Shown in pieces: positions 7,873 through 18,262 of a DNA stretch of 64,000 bases (its first letter is position 1; every line of letters begins with the position of its first letter). Under the pieces are notes generated by a model. That model was not told the DNA's origin. It ran no database searches and saw only the letters and a program-made list of their open reading frames with translations. The position numbers and the translations under genes were made by a program. The stretch lies in contig JAFGTC010000305.1 in the NCBI GenBank assembly GCA_016934335.1, positions 1 to 64,000 on the forward strand, read 5' to 3'. The DNA comes from Candidatus Omnitrophota bacterium. GTDB taxonomy: Bacteria > Hinthialibacterota > Hinthialibacteria > Hinthialibacterales > Hinthialibacteraceae.

Positions 7873-9711
7873 TTAAGGAATGCGGGGGAGGTCTGCCGCC
7901 GGCTGTATGGTTGTTTTCGAAGGCCGTTTGCGCGGGCCGTTCAACAATCTTCCCAACCAGGTATACCGCACCAGGTATTGATATGTGAAAAGCAGGAAGG
8001 CGCTGATAAGGGTGCAAATCAAAATAAATTTCAGGAAGGCGGGAATGGGCCAATCGCGCATAATCATCTGCGCCCATATCACAAGCGGCAAATGGGCGAT
8101 GTAGAGCCAGTAGGACGAATCGGACAAGTATCGCATGGTTTTGTTTTCTTGAAGGAACAATTTTCGAAACAGCCCCATACACCCGAATGTCATCAACCAG
8201 GCGAAAGAAGCCTCCAGAACGTTTGCCGCCAATTTATGAATGGCCGGATTGATCCAGTATCTTCCTGACAACCCTCCTTCGGTGAAGGCGACGCCCAAAG
8301 GGAAGATAATTAACATCGCCAACGGCAAGGTAAACCAAAATCTTTTTCCAACCTGACCTGCGCTGTCATGTGCATCGAAATACAATGCCCCAAAGCCGAA
8401 GAAAATCGCATAAAAGAAAAATACCTGCGGCATGGGAATCAAAACCACCGAGGTGTCCGGACCGAAAAAAGATAGGGACATAAACCATAGCGGTATTAAA
8501 GTCACTGGGATCAGCCAAAGATAGCGGGCGGGAGATACAATCAGCCAGCTGGACGATCCTTGCCAATTCAATAAATCAGCGGCGAACGCACAAAAAGCAA
8601 ATCCAACGATCAGCAAACACAAAAACCAAAGAAACCACAGATGACCCAAAATAGGCCATTGGAAGAGGAAATAATATAACACCCCTGCTCCGATTGAGCT
8701 TTCTTCGGCGCCGGCGTCACGCAAAAGTGTGGCGATCTCTTTGCGTCCTGCTTCCACTTTTTCTCGATCAAGTTCAACCTGCAAAATAGAGGCGATGAAT
8801 TGCGTTGTGTTCCAGTCCGTCGCAAGCGTTTCTATAGGTGTTTGACCGTAAACATTTCTTATATGGATGTTCGCGCCATTTTGGATCAGCCGTTCGGCGC
8901 ATTCCGTATGGCCCATGAATGCGGCTGTATGAAGGGCGGTGCTGCCGTCTCGATTGAGTCCATTGATGTTGGCTCCGTGTTGAATCAGTAATTCAAGCAT
9001 TTCCGCGCGTCCAAAAAAGGCGGCGGCAATTAACAGAGTACTCTCATTGGCCGGCTCCCGCATATTAAGATCCGCGCCGTTGGCGATGTACCAATTCAAC
9101 GCGTCGACATTTCCATCGCTAACTGCGGTCCATATATCCATCTTCGGTCGGCTATTGTCGTTGATGGGTTTTTCGGATTCAATGGATTTTTCTTGAACGG
9201 CGGCGGCATTGGGATTTTCATTAGAGCCTTCTGCAATGGATTGTTGAATCTTTTGAATGTCTCCGTTTCTCGAGGAGGTTAAAATATCGTTTTCTGCACT
9301 CTGGGCTGAACCGGATTGCGCCGCCTTTTCTATTCCAGATCGAATGGCCGCAGCGCTGATCCAATTCAATGCCGGAATGATTGTGATCATGCTGAGCAGA
9401 AACGGCAGAAAAATACGCCGGAAGCGGTGCCATAAAAGCGACTTCAATCCGCGCTTTCGCCATAACATGGCCGTAAAAAATCCGCTGATCAAAAAAAAGA
9501 GGGGAATGCGAAAACCGTGCAGGGAAGAAAAAATCAAGCCGAATGCTCTGTGTTGTTGGCTGTCCTTAACGATCCACGGTATTGTTAAAGAGAAAGAGAG
9601 CGCTGCATGCAGCACGATTCCCGATAACATGGCAATCGCGCGAAGCGCATCCAGGTCATGGCGGCGGTTGATTCTCGCGTTATCGCTAAAAGTTGGATCC
9701 GTTTGCTTCAT
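7873..9711 (-). CDS. Acyltransferase-3 (OPGC/OafA-like) membrane protein with inserted ankyrin repeats
   Basis: 'RHDLDALRAIAMLSGIVLHA', 'RIPLFFLISGFFTAMLWRKRGLKSLLWHRFRRIFLPFLL' and later TM segments fit acyltransferase 3; residues ~140-337 contain ankyrin repeats ('GSTALHTAAFMGHTECAERLIQNGANIHIRN'). Confidence 0.85.
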   Translation of the reverse strand: MKQTDPTFSDNARINRRHDLDALRAIAMLSGIVLHAALSFSLTIPWIVKDSQQHRAFGLIFSSLHGFRIPLFFLISGFFTAMLWRKRGLKSLLWHRFRRIFLPFLLSMITIIPALNWISAAAIRSGIEKAAQSGSAQSAENDILTSSRNGDIQKIQQSIAEGSNENPNAAAVQEKSIESEKPINDNSRPKMDIWTAVSDGNVDALNWYIANGADLNMREPANESTLLIAAAFFGRAEMLELLIQHGANINGLNRDGSTALHTAAFMGHTECAERLIQNGANIHIRNVYGQTPIETLATDWNTTQFIASILQVELDREKVEAGRKEIATLLRDAGAEESSIGAGVLYYFLFQWPILGHLWFLWFLCLLIVGFAFCAFAADLLNWQGSSSWLIVSPARYLWLIPVTLIPLWFMSLSFFGPDTSVVLIPMPQVFFFYAIFFGFGALYFDAHDSAGQVGKRFWFTLPLAMLIIFPLGVAFTEGGLSGRYWINPAIHKLAANVLEASFAWLMTFGCMGLFRKLFLQENKTMRYLSDSSYWLYIAHLPLVIWAQMIMRDWPIPAFLKFILICTLISAFLLFTYQYLVRYTWLGRLLNGPRKRPSKTTIQPAADLPRIP

Positions 9712-9783
9712 AAGAGAATCCTACATTATAATGATCTGCTCTTTATTTATCAGGCTTATCCCCGTTTGTTGTGAAGGGAGATA

Positions 9784-10332
9784 TTACAACTCTTTGCTGG
9801 TTTTTCCTCCATGTTTTTTTAGAATCTCGGCGACGCTGGAGCGGACTTTCTTGATGCGTTCCAGATCAAGATCCATCTTCAAAATTCCGGCAACCATTTT
9901 ATAAATGCCTTCCAGTTCCTGGCTCCACTCTCCACCGACTACATCCATGGGCGTCGAACCGGCGTTGTTCGTCGTATTTACTTCCGCGCCGTTCTCGAGA
10001 AGCAGTTTCACAATCTCCGGATAGCAGAAGAAGACCGCAGTCATCAAAGCGGTGGAGCCATCGTTGTTCTTGATCTCTAATTCGGCGCCATTGTTGATCA
10101 ATAATCTTGCTGCTTCAGTTTGACCAAGCGCCGATGCGGCGATCAGAGGGGTTCCGCCTCCAGCCGGTTCTTTTTGGTTGAGATCGGTTCCTGCGGCTAT
10201 GTGTTTTTGTAATTCGGCGGTGTTTCCCGCGGCCGCAGCAGTCCAAATGTCAATGGTCGGCGCTTGAGATCCGCATCCCAACGCTAATAAAGCTGCGAAT
10301 CCCAGACAAAACGCTTTGGTATAAATCCTCAT
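9784..10332 (-). CDS. Ankyrin-repeat lipoprotein
   Basis: Signal peptide with lipobox-like 'LALGC', then ankyrin repeats 'GGTPLIAASALGQTEAARLLINNGAELEIKNNDGSTALMTA'. Confidence 0.85.
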   Translation of the reverse strand: MRIYTKAFCLGFAALLALGCGSQAPTIDIWTAAAAGNTAELQKHIAAGTDLNQKEPAGGGTPLIAASALGQTEAARLLINNGAELEIKNNDGSTALMTAVFFCYPEIVKLLLENGAEVNTTNNAGSTPMDVVGGEWSQELEGIYKMVAGILKMDLDLERIKKVRSSVAEILKKHGGKTSKEL

Positions 10333-12133: not shown

Positions 12134-12886
12134 TTAGGGCTGCTTTCGCCATTCCAACCAAATTCCATAGTTGACGCCCTCGCTTCCCGAGGGATGAGGC
12201 CGGTGAATTTGATAATTTTGAATATTTAATTCTTGCATGATTTGTCGCAGATCTTGTTCGGTTTGATCAACATCATACGCAGGGAAGCGTGCATTCTTTT
12301 TCTGTCTTTCGCGGATCGCGCGAGCAGTTTCGGCGGGTAAATTTTCCGAAAAACCCCGGCCGATATAGGCGATCCCGCCGACTTTCAAGATGCGGTTGAC
12401 TTCGCTCAAGCCGGCTTTAACGCCTCCCCAGAAGGGGAAAGAGCCGCGCGAGACGACGATATCGGCATAGCCGTCTTTATAGGGAAGGTTTTTCGCATCG
12501 GCGTATTGGGCGCTGATGCGATCGGCGATCCCATTTTGCTGCGCTTTCTGGAAAAAGGCGTAAAAGGCGCCGGGATTGATGTCGGCGTTGATCCAATGGA
12601 GAGAAGGAGTTCGCTGCGCCAGTTCGACGATCAAATCCCCTTTACCGCTTCCCAGATCGATGCCGATTCCCTGCAGCGATTCGAGATGGAAGCGGTTTAC
12701 TAACCATTCCGCCAGCGGCGCGTACACGGGCGCAAGGACGCTTTTGGATGTTGGAGGTTGTTTTTCCTGAGCAGGGTGGGTTTGAATGTGTTCTTCGTTG
12801 TATTTAACGGACACGCAGCCCATAAAAAAAATGCTTGCTAAAATTGCAGACAGGCATAGATGGTAGTATCGTTTATAATGCGTCAT
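12134..12886 (-). CDS. Class I SAM-dependent methyltransferase-fold protein with lipoprotein signal peptide
   Basis: 'GIGIDLGSGKGDLIVELAQRTPSLHWINADINPGA' motif I and 'EVNRILKVGGIAYIG'; N-terminus 'MTHYKRYYHLCLSAILASIFFMGC' ends in a lipobox. Confidence 0.8.
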   Translation of the reverse strand: MTHYKRYYHLCLSAILASIFFMGCVSVKYNEEHIQTHPAQEKQPPTSKSVLAPVYAPLAEWLVNRFHLESLQGIGIDLGSGKGDLIVELAQRTPSLHWINADINPGAFYAFFQKAQQNGIADRISAQYADAKNLPYKDGYADIVVSRGSFPFWGGVKAGLSEVNRILKVGGIAYIGRGFSENLPAETARAIRERQKKNARFPAYDVDQTEQDLRQIMQELNIQNYQIHRPHPSGSEGVNYGIWLEWRKQP

Positions 12887-13170
12887 GGAGTGATCTTCCT
12901 TTGAATTTGCGTATTTTTTTCTCGCTTTCACTTGTGGCAGTTTATCATATGCCGTCATGCTGTTGTACTGCTGCATGTATATTTTACTATTTTTGAATCT
13001 AAGAATACTCTTCCTGACTCCACTAAGCAGCTGTTCCTATGCTATCATGTAGCGAAAAGTTGAATCTCCGATTGGAATTCGGCTTCTTTGGGGCTGACAA
13101 GCGAAAGCGTGAATCAAATCGGGGAGGGAAAATCAAAAAGACGCGCCGTCTTTCAGGAAACGTTGGTTTT

Positions 13171-14377: not shown

Positions 14378-17300
14378 ATGAAACAGAACGGAATCATCTT
14401 AATGAAATTTAAAATAAAAAGGATCTTTTTGAAAGTGAGAAAATTGGCGGGAGTTATTTATTGGTTGGTTTTATCTCTTATGATGACCATCGGATCTTCT
14501 GCGGAAGATTGGCCGATGTGGCGTTATGATGCGGGGCGGACGGCCGCTTCGCCGCAGACGATGACGGGGGAGTTGCATTTGCAATGGGTTCGCGAATATC
14601 CCCAACCGGCGCCTGTTTGGGATGATCCTCTCAACCAGGATCTGATGCAGTATGACACCGTCTACGAACCGATCGTATTGGGGGGTATGATGTTTGTGGG
14701 ATTTAACGGCTTTGATCGTCTTACGGCGATTGATACTGATACCGGCGAAGAAAAATGGTCTTTTTATGCGCAGGGGCCGGTTCGACTGCCGCCAGTCGCA
14801 GGGCGAGGAATGGTTTATTTTGTCAGCGATGACGGATGTCTTTATTGCCTCGACGCGGAAACCAGCGATTTGCAATGGAAATATCAAGGCGTTCCCCAAG
14901 ACCGCTTGATATTGGGCAACGAGCGTTTGATCTCGACCTGGTGCGCGAGAGGCGGGCCGGTGTTGAAGGATGGGATTGTCTATTTCGGCGCTGGAATCTG
15001 GCCGTTTATGGGCGTTTTTATTTTTGCTATTGATGCGGAAAGCGGCGAGGAGATTTGGGTTAACGACGGCGCCAGCGCCATTTTTATGAAGCAGCCCCAT
15101 AATTCTCCCTCATTCGCCAGCGTGGCGCCTCAAGGAAGTCTGGTTATTTCCGGCGATAAACTCCTGGTTCCCGGCGGGCGATCGGTTCCCGCATGCTTCG
15201 ATCTGAAAACGGGAGAGTTTCTCTATTATCGGCTGGCGGACAATGGGAAAACCGGCGGCGCTTTTGTGAGCGCCATCGGCGACCGCTTCGTGAATTACTA
15301 TCGCGATGAAGTCGTCAATTTATTCGATCTGTCGACCGGCGACATGCTGATTGGCCGCTTTGGAAAATGTCCTGTGCTTACGCCGACTGCCTTTTACAGC
15401 AGAGGGGAGAAGGTTGTCGCGCACGATTATGCCAACCTCCGCATGATCGAAAAAGAGAAATTGGAGCGCGATAGAACGACGAGAGAACTTAAAGTAACAA
15501 TTGAAAAAGAGTGGAAGCTCGATGCCAAATGGGAACTGGGCGTGGATGGAGCCGGCGACTTGATCAAGGCGGGCGACCGTTTGTTTGCGGGAGGAGAAAA
15601 TGTTGTCGCCGCGATTGATTTGCCGTCGAACGACTCCAATCAACCGGTTGTTTCCTGGCAAGCCGCCATTGAGGGAACCGCATCGAGACTGATAGCGGCG
15701 GACGATAAATTGTTTGTCGTGACGAATCATGGAAAGATCTATGCTTTTGGTGCGGAGGAGCGCGAGCCTCAACAGTTCCCCTTCGAGACGAAAGCGCCTG
15801 CTCTCTCTGACGAGGTTGTTGAAAAGGCAAAATCCATTCTTGAACTGACTTCGGTTCGGGAAGGATATTGTTTTATTTATGGCGTGACGAACGGAGATTT
15901 GATGGAGGCCCTGGTTCGTCATTCCGATCTGCGCGTAGTTGCATTCGATCCGGATCCGCAGAAAGTGGACGCCCTGCGCCGCCGCTTCGCAGACGCCGGA
16001 TTGTATGGAGAGCGTTTATCCATACGCGTCGGAGATCTGCTGACCGATCCAACCGCGCCCTATATCGCCAGCCTGACTCTTTTTGAAGATCTTTCGGCGT
16101 CTTCGTATACAAAAGATTGTCAGTTTGTGACGCGTCTCATCCATCAGACGCGGCCCTATGGAGGGATGATTTGTCTGCAATTGCATGATAACGACGCCAT
16201 TCGCGTTATTAACAGCGTCAAGCAATGCGATCCTCCAAACATCAATATCTATCAATCGGACGGCTATGTGCAAATCGTTCGCGAGGGGGGATTGCCCGGC
16301 GCCGATGATTGGTCGCATCAATATGGGAACATTGCCAATACGGTCAAATCGGACGATCAGCTTGTTAAACTACCTTTGGGATTGTTGTGGTACGGCGGCA
16401 GTTCCAACCTGGATGTTTTGCCGCGTCATGGCCACGGACCGCCCGAGCAAATTGTGGGCGGCCGTTTGTTTATCCAGGGTATGAATTCGCTAAGCGCTCG
16501 CGATGTATATACGGGACGCGTTTTGTGGAAGCGTACTTTTCCGGAATTGGATAATTATGGTGTTTTTTACGATGAAACGTATCAAGATACGCCTCTTTCG
16601 ACGGAATACAACCAAATTCATATTCCCGGCGCCAACGCGCGGGGAACGAATTATGTCGTTGCGCCGGATAAAATCTATCTGGTCATCAAAAACCAATGTC
16701 ATGTGCTCGATCCTGTCGATGGACAAACCCTGCAGGTCATTGCACTTCCAGAATTTCCTCATAGCGGCGATGTGGATGAGTGGGGCTATATCGGCGTATA
16801 TGAAGATTATCTGATTGCCGGAGGGGGATTTGCATCCTTCTCGGATTTCATCGATTTGAGTTCCGATGTCGAGAAGAAAAAACGGCCCTTTTATAACTAT
16901 GATATCTCTTCGAGCAAGAGGCTGGTGGTCATGAATCGCCATTCCGGCGATGTGATTTGGAGTTTTAACGCTGACTTGGGACTGCGGCACAATGCTATCG
17001 TCGCCGGCAGCGGCAAAATTTTCTGCATCGATAAAATGCCGGAACTTGTTGAGAAATCTCTGAAGCGGCGCGGCAGGAATTACATTGGCACGCCTCGGCT
17101 TTTGGCTTTCGATATTCGCAATGGAAATATTTTGTGGAGTATGACCGACGATGTATTTGGAACATGGCTCAGTTATTCGACCGAATACGACATTTTGATC
17201 GAAGCGGTGCGCTATTCGCGAGACATGCTGGCGGAGGAGCCTCGAGAGAAATTAGCCGGCTTTCGCGGGAAAGATGGAGAACCGCTTTGGAAGAATGACG

Positions 17301-18262
17301 CTGCATATGGGGGGCCTTGCATTCTTCATGGAGAGACCATCATCACGGAGCCGTTCGCCTTCAGTCTTTTGACCGGCGAACAAAAAATGCGGCGCAATCC
17401 GCTGACCGGCGAAAAGACGCCCTGGACTTACAACCGCCAATATGGCTGCAATTATTCGATCGCCAGCGAATATTTGATGACGTTTCGCTCCGCCGCCGCC
17501 GGCTTTTTCGATCTGGAGCAAGATGCGGGCACCGGCAACTTCGGCGGTTTTAAATCGGGATGCACATCCAACTTGATCGCCGCCAATGGCGTGCTGAACG
17601 CTCCCGATTATACGCGCACCTGTTCTTGCAGCTACCAGAATCAAACTTCCCTGGCGCTGATTCACGATCCCCAAGTCGAAATCTGGACGTATAACGACAT
17701 CGAATTGGGGGAGGGCCCCATCCAGCGTTTGGGGGTGAATCTGGGCGCGCCCGGCGACCGGCGAGCCGACAAGGGAACGCTCTGGCTTGAATATCCTATT
17801 GTCGGCGGCCCCTCTCCGGAAATCGAGATGCAGTTCGAACCTTCCGAACCGTCCTGGTTCCGGCATCATGCCTGCCGCATGATGGGCGGCGATTTGAAAT
17901 GGGTGTGCGCATCGGGCGCGGAAGGATTGAAGCGATTGAGGCTGTCGCTTGCCGGCGAAAATCAAGGATCGATGGAATATACAGTGCGGCTTTATTTCGC
18001 CGAACCGAGGCCGATTCGAAAAGGCGATCGAGTCTTCGACGTCGTAATGCAAGGTAGGCGAGCGCTGCAGGATTTTGATATCCTAAACGAGGTCGACTCC
18101 ATTCGCTTCGGCGTCGTCAAAGAGTTTCATCATGTTCCTGTTGACAGCCAGTTGGAAATAGAATTCATTCCGAGCCATTCGTCTCTTATACAAGAGTCTG
18201 TATTATGCGGAATCGAGTTGATTTCAAGCGACGGCGCCAACCTTCAGGCGGGGCTTTTTTAA
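14378..18262 (+). CDS. Large exported protein: PQQ-like beta-propeller, methyltransferase-like insert, second PQQ-like propeller, malectin-like C-terminus
   Basis: PQQ-type repeats ('LTAIDTDTGEEKWSFYAQGPVRLPPVAGRGMVYFVSDDGCLYCLDAETSDLQWKY'); Rossmann-like 'LRVVAFDPDPQKVDALRRRFADAGLYGERLSIRVGDLL'; C-terminal 'YTVRLYFAEPRPIRKGDRVFDVVMQGRRALQDFDI'. Confidence 0.85.
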   Translation: MKQNGIILMKFKIKRIFLKVRKLAGVIYWLVLSLMMTIGSSAEDWPMWRYDAGRTAASPQTMTGELHLQWVREYPQPAPVWDDPLNQDLMQYDTVYEPIVLGGMMFVGFNGFDRLTAIDTDTGEEKWSFYAQGPVRLPPVAGRGMVYFVSDDGCLYCLDAETSDLQWKYQGVPQDRLILGNERLISTWCARGGPVLKDGIVYFGAGIWPFMGVFIFAIDAESGEEIWVNDGASAIFMKQPHNSPSFASVAPQGSLVISGDKLLVPGGRSVPACFDLKTGEFLYYRLADNGKTGGAFVSAIGDRFVNYYRDEVVNLFDLSTGDMLIGRFGKCPVLTPTAFYSRGEKVVAHDYANLRMIEKEKLERDRTTRELKVTIEKEWKLDAKWELGVDGAGDLIKAGDRLFAGGENVVAAIDLPSNDSNQPVVSWQAAIEGTASRLIAADDKLFVVTNHGKIYAFGAEEREPQQFPFETKAPALSDEVVEKAKSILELTSVREGYCFIYGVTNGDLMEALVRHSDLRVVAFDPDPQKVDALRRRFADAGLYGERLSIRVGDLLTDPTAPYIASLTLFEDLSASSYTKDCQFVTRLIHQTRPYGGMICLQLHDNDAIRVINSVKQCDPPNINIYQSDGYVQIVREGGLPGADDWSHQYGNIANTVKSDDQLVKLPLGLLWYGGSSNLDVLPRHGHGPPEQIVGGRLFIQGMNSLSARDVYTGRVLWKRTFPELDNYGVFYDETYQDTPLSTEYNQIHIPGANARGTNYVVAPDKIYLVIKNQCHVLDPVDGQTLQVIALPEFPHSGDVDEWGYIGVYEDYLIAGGGFASFSDFIDLSSDVEKKKRPFYNYDISSSKRLVVMNRHSGDVIWSFNADLGLRHNAIVAGSGKIFCIDKMPELVEKSLKRRGRNYIGTPRLLAFDIRNGNILWSMTDDVFGTWLSYSTEYDILIEAVRYSRDMLAEEPREKLAGFRGKDGEPLWKNDAAYGGPCILHGETIITEPFAFSLLTGEQKMRRNPLTGEKTPWTYNRQYGCNYSIASEYLMTFRSAAAGFFDLEQDAGTGNFGGFKSGCTSNLIAANGVLNAPDYTRTCSCSYQNQTSLALIHDPQVEIWTYNDIELGEGPIQRLGVNLGAPGDRRADKGTLWLEYPIVGGPSPEIEMQFEPSEPSWFRHHACRMMGGDLKWVCASGAEGLKRLRLSLAGENQGSMEYTVRLYFAEPRPIRKGDRVFDVVMQGRRALQDFDILNEVDSIRFGVVKEFHHVPVDSQLEIEFIPSHSSLIQESVLCGIELISSDGANLQAGLF

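Follow-up and report, generated by a model that had tools for sequence, protein, structure and literature searches.

The 64,000-nucleotide stretch of Candidatus Omnitrophota DNA analysed here (the window) encodes a membrane acyltransferase of the AT3/TmAT type that carries an ankyrin module in the loop joining its third and fourth transmembrane (TM) helices, and, immediately upstream on the same strand, a lipoprotein that carries a related ankyrin module. Comparison of relatives indicates that the insert of the enzyme has long been fixed in a clade found in at least seven phyla, and that the module of the lipoprotein is a separate class. As far as could be found, the ankyrin-AT3 enzymes are a widespread and undescribed branch of AT3/TmAT. 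A review of AT3 proteins distinguishes stand-alone, SGNH and alanine-racemase architectures and does not contain the word ankyrin (PMC9558356); no paper on an ankyrin-bearing AT3 enzyme was found in the accessible part of the open-access literature, and domain databases may list the architecture automatically. We tentatively propose, with slightly less than even confidence, that the module, sitting in a loop that would cover the pore, docks a partner protein, the lipoprotein being the likeliest candidate, and thereby targets and/or gates acyl transfer. The features on which the argument is built are the following.

7873..9711, minus strand: enzyme gene, AT3/TmAT acyltransferase with ankyrin insert, 612 aa (ORF, Pfam, AF2 model)
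9352..9666, minus strand: TM1-TM3 half, residues 16-120 (AT3 motifs kept in at least 79 of 82 relatives)
9145..9351, minus strand: linker ahead of the module, residues 121-189, mostly specific to the window genome (alignment, AF2)
8695..9144, minus strand: insert-class ankyrin module in loop 3-4, residues 190-339 (Pfam, alignment, AF2)
8710..8841, minus strand: extended last repeat of the insert, residues 291-334 (AF2 helices, conserved positions)
7939..8694, minus strand: short helix and TM4-TM10 half, residues 340-591 (motif conservation in 82 relatives)
9712..9783, minus strand: intergenic gap of 72 bp between the lipoprotein gene and the enzyme gene
9784..10332, minus strand: ankyrin lipoprotein gene, 182 aa (ORF, ANK Pfam matches, AF2 pLDDT 90)
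10273..10332, minus strand: putative signal peptide and lipobox LALG/C20 (read from the sequence)
9799..10260, minus strand: partner-class ankyrin module, residues 25-178 (three ANK repeats and a modified last repeat)
10024..10026, minus strand: codon of Cys103, which replaces the conserved ANK Gly and marks the partner class
9811..9954, minus strand: extended last repeat of the lipoprotein (AF2 helices)

The two ORFs, their strands and their 72-bp spacing are as originally predicted, the lipoprotein gene lying upstream of the enzyme gene on the minus strand. No terminator-like site was found in the 72-bp gap. The gap contains a single sigma-70-like match (9753-9725), located upstream of the enzyme gene, so that a transcript common to both genes is only putative; promoter-like matches in the region are no better than in shuffled sequence. 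A sister genome, from the same family but another genus, carries the ortholog pair in the same order, the two genes overlapping there by 8 nt. The gene order is thus kept in a related genome, and a frameshift or an assembly join, the case that had been named as fatal to the prediction, shows no sign and is rejected on account of this second pair. As the gene that follows the enzyme in the sister genome sits on the opposite strand, the pseudopilin gene found downstream of the enzyme in the window is probably an incidental neighbour.

By motifs and family match, the 612-aa protein is an intact AT3 enzyme, as had been proposed. It matches Pfam Acyl_transf_3 (PF01757) in two stretches (E 5e-28, 98.5 bits against a gathering score of 31), the best of which covers residues 18-113. 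The motifs of the TmAT superfamily and AT3 proteins are DxxRx10H, FxxxxG, RxxR and SxxxY (PMC12423673). All were recognized in the enzyme: D21, R24 and H35 in TM1, F72 and G77 in TM2, and R96 and R99 in TM3, each kept in at least 79 of 82 relatives, and S530 and Y534 in TM9, invariant in the 82 relatives like the HLWFLWFL sequence of TM4 (8620-8643). The AF2 model, built on an 82-sequence alignment, has a mean pLDDT of 90 and a pTM of 0.85, and ten TM-length helices can be counted on it. No SGNH domain was matched in the enzyme, whose chain ends shortly past TM10. A PDB sequence search with its C-terminal TM part gave no match, and the best 50 structures listed by Foldseek for the whole model are only of the ankyrin type. 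The genome of the window also encodes an insert-free paralogue of 416 aa (L036). The query had no match in a plasmid collection, and a role in anti-phage defence was rejected, the PADLOC match being just to the ankyrin stretch of the two proteins.

Among the families of known function, the best NCBIfam match of the enzyme is PRK03854 (E 6e-34, two stretches), i.e. OpgC/MdoC, the stand-alone AT3 protein that succinylates osmoregulated periplasmic glucans. The TM core is alignable with that of OpgC/MdoC, including the HLWFL motif before TM4. However, the enzyme scores 117.8 bits, far below the equivalog cut-off of 338, and loop 3-4 of the E. coli protein MdoC (385 aa) is free of any ankyrin module. 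Canonical glucan succinylation was rejected, since opgG (PF04349) had no match in the genome of the window, which is 94% complete, while the E. coli control was found. The enzyme shares with the AT3-SGNH proteins of the OafB/OatA type the AT3 core motifs, a periplasmic loop 3-4 and an extracytoplasmic soluble domain that belongs to the machine (PMC9833829, PMC9558356), but it lacks SGNH, and its extra domain is an ankyrin module placed inside the core rather than at the C-terminus.

Pfam Ank families score above their gathering thresholds at about residues 195-294 of the enzyme, between the two Acyl_transf_3 stretches, so that both domains belong to one chain. In the AF2 model, TM-length helices flank the ankyrin part on both sides, in agreement with the predicted insertion between AT3 helices, and the insert consists of three ankyrin helix pairs followed by a modified last repeat, between TM3 and TM4. 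The segment had originally been delimited as residues 122-340; the ankyrin insert itself stands, but this range joins the module (190-339) to a linker (about 126-189). Most relatives are devoid of the linker (82% gaps over about residues 126-190 of their alignment), and its pLDDT falls below 50 at residues 168-178. The last repeat of the insert comprises helices 292-295, 300-309 and 316-332, and its conserved positions are D299, T303, G322 and R323. We read the "unusual tail" noticed originally as the last ankyrin repeat, apparently extended through one additional helix and closed by a long one.

The insert is predicted to sit on the outer side of the inner membrane, in loop 3-4. This placement relies on the polarity of the motifs, on the lipobox of the neighbouring protein and on positive-inside charges, with 25 Lys and Arg residues in the predicted cytoplasmic segments versus 4 in the periplasmic loops, the insert loop being excluded. 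In OafB, loop 3-4 is periplasmic; in simulations it occludes the pore and moves to admit acetyl-CoA (PMC9833829).

The lipoprotein begins with a putative signal peptide and an LALGC sequence at residues 16-20, read by eye; a lipobox-like start is also found on lone partner proteins (L034, L134, L147, L148). Its module is likewise predicted to lie on the outer side of the inner membrane, so that the envelope location foreseen for both modules is retained. Its AF2 model (pLDDT 90) has the same plan as the insert of the enzyme, with tail helices 128-133, 138-150 and 157-173. The homology that had been seen by eye is borne out by alignment of 155 residues, tail included, with 39-40% identity (39% in the pairwise alignment) and an E value of 6e-36 for that one comparison.

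A contig scan with the enzymes of the window and of the sister genome as queries, module included, retrieved 80 loci which, going by record titles and with some metagenome bins among them, belong to Planctomycetota, Verrucomicrobiota, Latescibacterota, Gemmatimonadota, Poribacteria, Armatimonadota and Acidobacteriota. One of these enzymes is encoded by Rhodopirellula baltica, a cultured planctomycete (L071). An ankyrin module lies between the two TM halves in all 80 loci, and the insert is present in 82 of 82 aligned relatives, with 3% gaps in the module columns. A second search covered 119 genomes from a single planctomycete family and used a module-free query, the C-terminal TM part only. 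At the best 36 places (E<1e-42) the open frame measures 508-862 aa, and the more distant full-length matches are mostly of 400-450 aa. As this search agrees with the first, the insert marks a clade and is no selection artefact. The tree of the TM part is compatible with a single origin of the ankyrin clade, with weak support (49). Some loci carry longer inserts, possibly two modules (L077, L080, L081, L087), and frames of about 800-870 aa, possibly also with two modules, were seen among the enzyme matches of the family search.

In the module tree, the modules of the window and sister lipoproteins join the second module of partner proteins from Planctomycetota with 96% SH-aLRT support and stand apart from the inserts, including the insert encoded by the same genome. 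Position 267 of the inserts is Gly in 82/82, versus Cys at the matching position in 13/14 partner modules, a descriptive count since the set was partly picked by similarity. Between the window and sister genomes, identity reaches 62% for the lipoprotein module, 60% for the TM core and 40% for the insert. These sequence data indicate that the lipoprotein module is a class separate from the inserts and that the duplication linking both classes, in either direction, is ancient.

Partner-class modules adjoin the enzyme in three distinct parts of its tree, and the proteins that carry them are of three types. The lipoprotein type is found beside the enzyme in the window and in L034. In six loci (L094, L099, L102, L119, L122 and L123), an upstream gene encoding two modules overlaps the enzyme gene by 4 nt. 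Four of these partners (L094, L099, L102 and L122) seem by eye to have a short anti-sigma-like N-terminus and a TM helix, an identity that comes from gene order and a short N-terminus without Pfam hit; three of the genes (L094, L099 and L122) come after a small sigma-like gene, which in L099 encodes a sigma-70 region 2 domain. Lastly, a PQQ-propeller protein with the module is encoded 112 bp downstream of the enzyme in L088. Outside the window and sister genomes, the adjacent partners belong to two Planctomycetota lineages (TM anti-sigma-like and PQQ-propeller).

Under simple assumptions, this adjacency is unlikely to be due to chance, which makes the envelope complex originally suggested for the two products plausible. 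Among 241 genomes of one family, the enzyme is encoded by 10 of the 11 that have a strong partner-class match, versus 91/241 overall (Fisher p 3e-4, phylogeny ignored). However, the pairing is not general: 199 genomes sampled evenly from one phylum include 11 that encode the enzyme, all of them without a strong partner match. Most enzymes have no adjacent partner gene and many enzyme-bearing genomes have no strong partner match; related lipoproteins are encoded at unlinked places in some enzyme-bearing genomes (L134, L147, L148).

Beyond this architecture and this adjacency, we infer a docking mechanism. By homology, the TM core would accept an acyl group from cytoplasmic acyl-CoA and make it available at the outer face of the inner membrane. 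The ankyrin module, anchored by either end in the loop covering the pore, would be a protein-docking site, and the adjacent lipoprotein with its partner-class module its most likely partner. Its docking would bring the acceptor to the active site, shift loop 3-4, or both, and acyl transfer would then be confined to the places or times at which the partner is available. The position of the insert in an OafB-type pore loop, its clade-wide fixation, the recurrent adjacency of partners and their co-occurrence within a family all support docking. Since related modules are carried by unrelated exported proteins (YNCE/cytochrome-like, PQQ, CotH), the module may also be a general-purpose binder.

Alternatively, and somewhat improbably, the insert could bind the acceptor, either a glycan carrier or an envelope protein, the lipoprotein binding something else and their adjacency reflecting shared regulation only. 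The spread of the module over several kinds of exported proteins is consistent with this, as is the periplasmic sequence unique to AT3-SGNH proteins that seems to restrict acceptor specificity (PMC9558356), but adjacency at three places of the tree and co-occurrence within a family exceed chance under simple assumptions.

It is unlikely that the insert is a ligand-controlled gate, i.e. that loop 3-4 is displaced and the acyl-CoA pore opened when an exported ankyrin partner binds, the lipoprotein in the window or the TM anti-sigma-like protein in some Planctomycetota. If true, this would define a regulated kind of AT3 enzyme, in which envelope acylation depends on partner proteins and is also tied, in some lineages, to transcriptional signalling.

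An equally doubtful possibility is that the lipoprotein is a brake whose module covers the outer face of the enzyme and blocks transfer until released. According to the accessible part of its description, the Bdellovibrio self-protection protein Bd3460 is an exported ankyrin protein which is encoded beside one of its targets and sterically blocks the extracytoplasmic enzymes that it controls (PMC4686830). In several genomes, partner genes lie upstream of the enzyme with 4-8 nt overlap, as would suit such a device. However, the targets of Bd3460 are endopeptidases and not a membrane acyltransferase, and the same part of the source mentions no ankyrin module in them (PMC4686830). A brake also leaves unexplained the homologous, clade-fixed module of the enzyme itself and the presence of partner modules on PQQ propellers and TM anti-sigma-like proteins.

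A role in envelope signalling, in which insert and partner would report the state of the envelope to a sigma factor or a kinase and acylation would be an output or a sensor step, is very improbable. In its favour, the TM partner comes after a small sigma-like gene in the three Planctomycetota loci mentioned above, and the enzyme follows a Ser/Thr kinase gene in 12 of 43 upstream same-strand neighbours, that of L078 being itself preceded by an ECF sigma gene. Nevertheless, no sigma factor or kinase is encoded beside the pair of the window, and the link to sigma factors and kinases may be incidental, because genes of these two sorts often cluster in such bacteria. The anti-sigma identity, in turn, was assigned from gene order and a short N-terminus.

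Finally, the duplication of the lipoprotein module into the enzyme loop that had originally been suggested, taken as a recent and local event, is hardly credible and is abandoned: insert and lipoprotein module are indeed 40% identical, like the inserts of the two sister genomes, but the insert is present in the whole clade across phyla, the lipoprotein module clusters with distant partner modules at 96% support and the two classes differ by Gly/Cys.

Whether stand-alone AT3 members need partner proteins is an open question of the field (PMC9558356, PMC9833829), and a mobile loop has been proposed as the plug of the pore (PMC9833829). The ankyrin branch, as docking would have it, combines a protein-binding domain within this loop with a recurrent adjacent partner, so that partner need and loop plug become testable with a two-gene system.

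More largely, ankyrin modules are in wide use on exported proteins of environmental bacteria. CotH-kinase, PQQ-propeller and YNCE/cytochrome-like exported proteins from Planctomycetota, Verrucomicrobiota and others carry the same module with its extended last repeat, but as one to three tandem copies near an end and not inside a membrane enzyme. One CotH-kinase protein (L035:3943-6606, plus strand), from outside the phylum of the window, has three tandem copies, which are among the best matches to the insert of the window. A TM protein that resembles an anti-sigma factor and has two ankyrin modules also adjoins other exported proteins, namely a YNCE-type protein (L141), a PSD/PSCyt protein (L144) and a lipobox PQQ protein (L149), and comes after a small sigma-like gene in L141 and L144. 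Within the window, a class I SAM-dependent methyltransferase (12134-12976, minus strand) has a lipoprotein-like N-terminus (FFMGC), an odd start for an enzyme that needs cytoplasmic SAM, and a PQQ/BamB-type propeller with a C-terminal malectin domain (14378-18262, plus strand) includes a weak methyltransferase-like stretch (residues 502-558, E 0.009).
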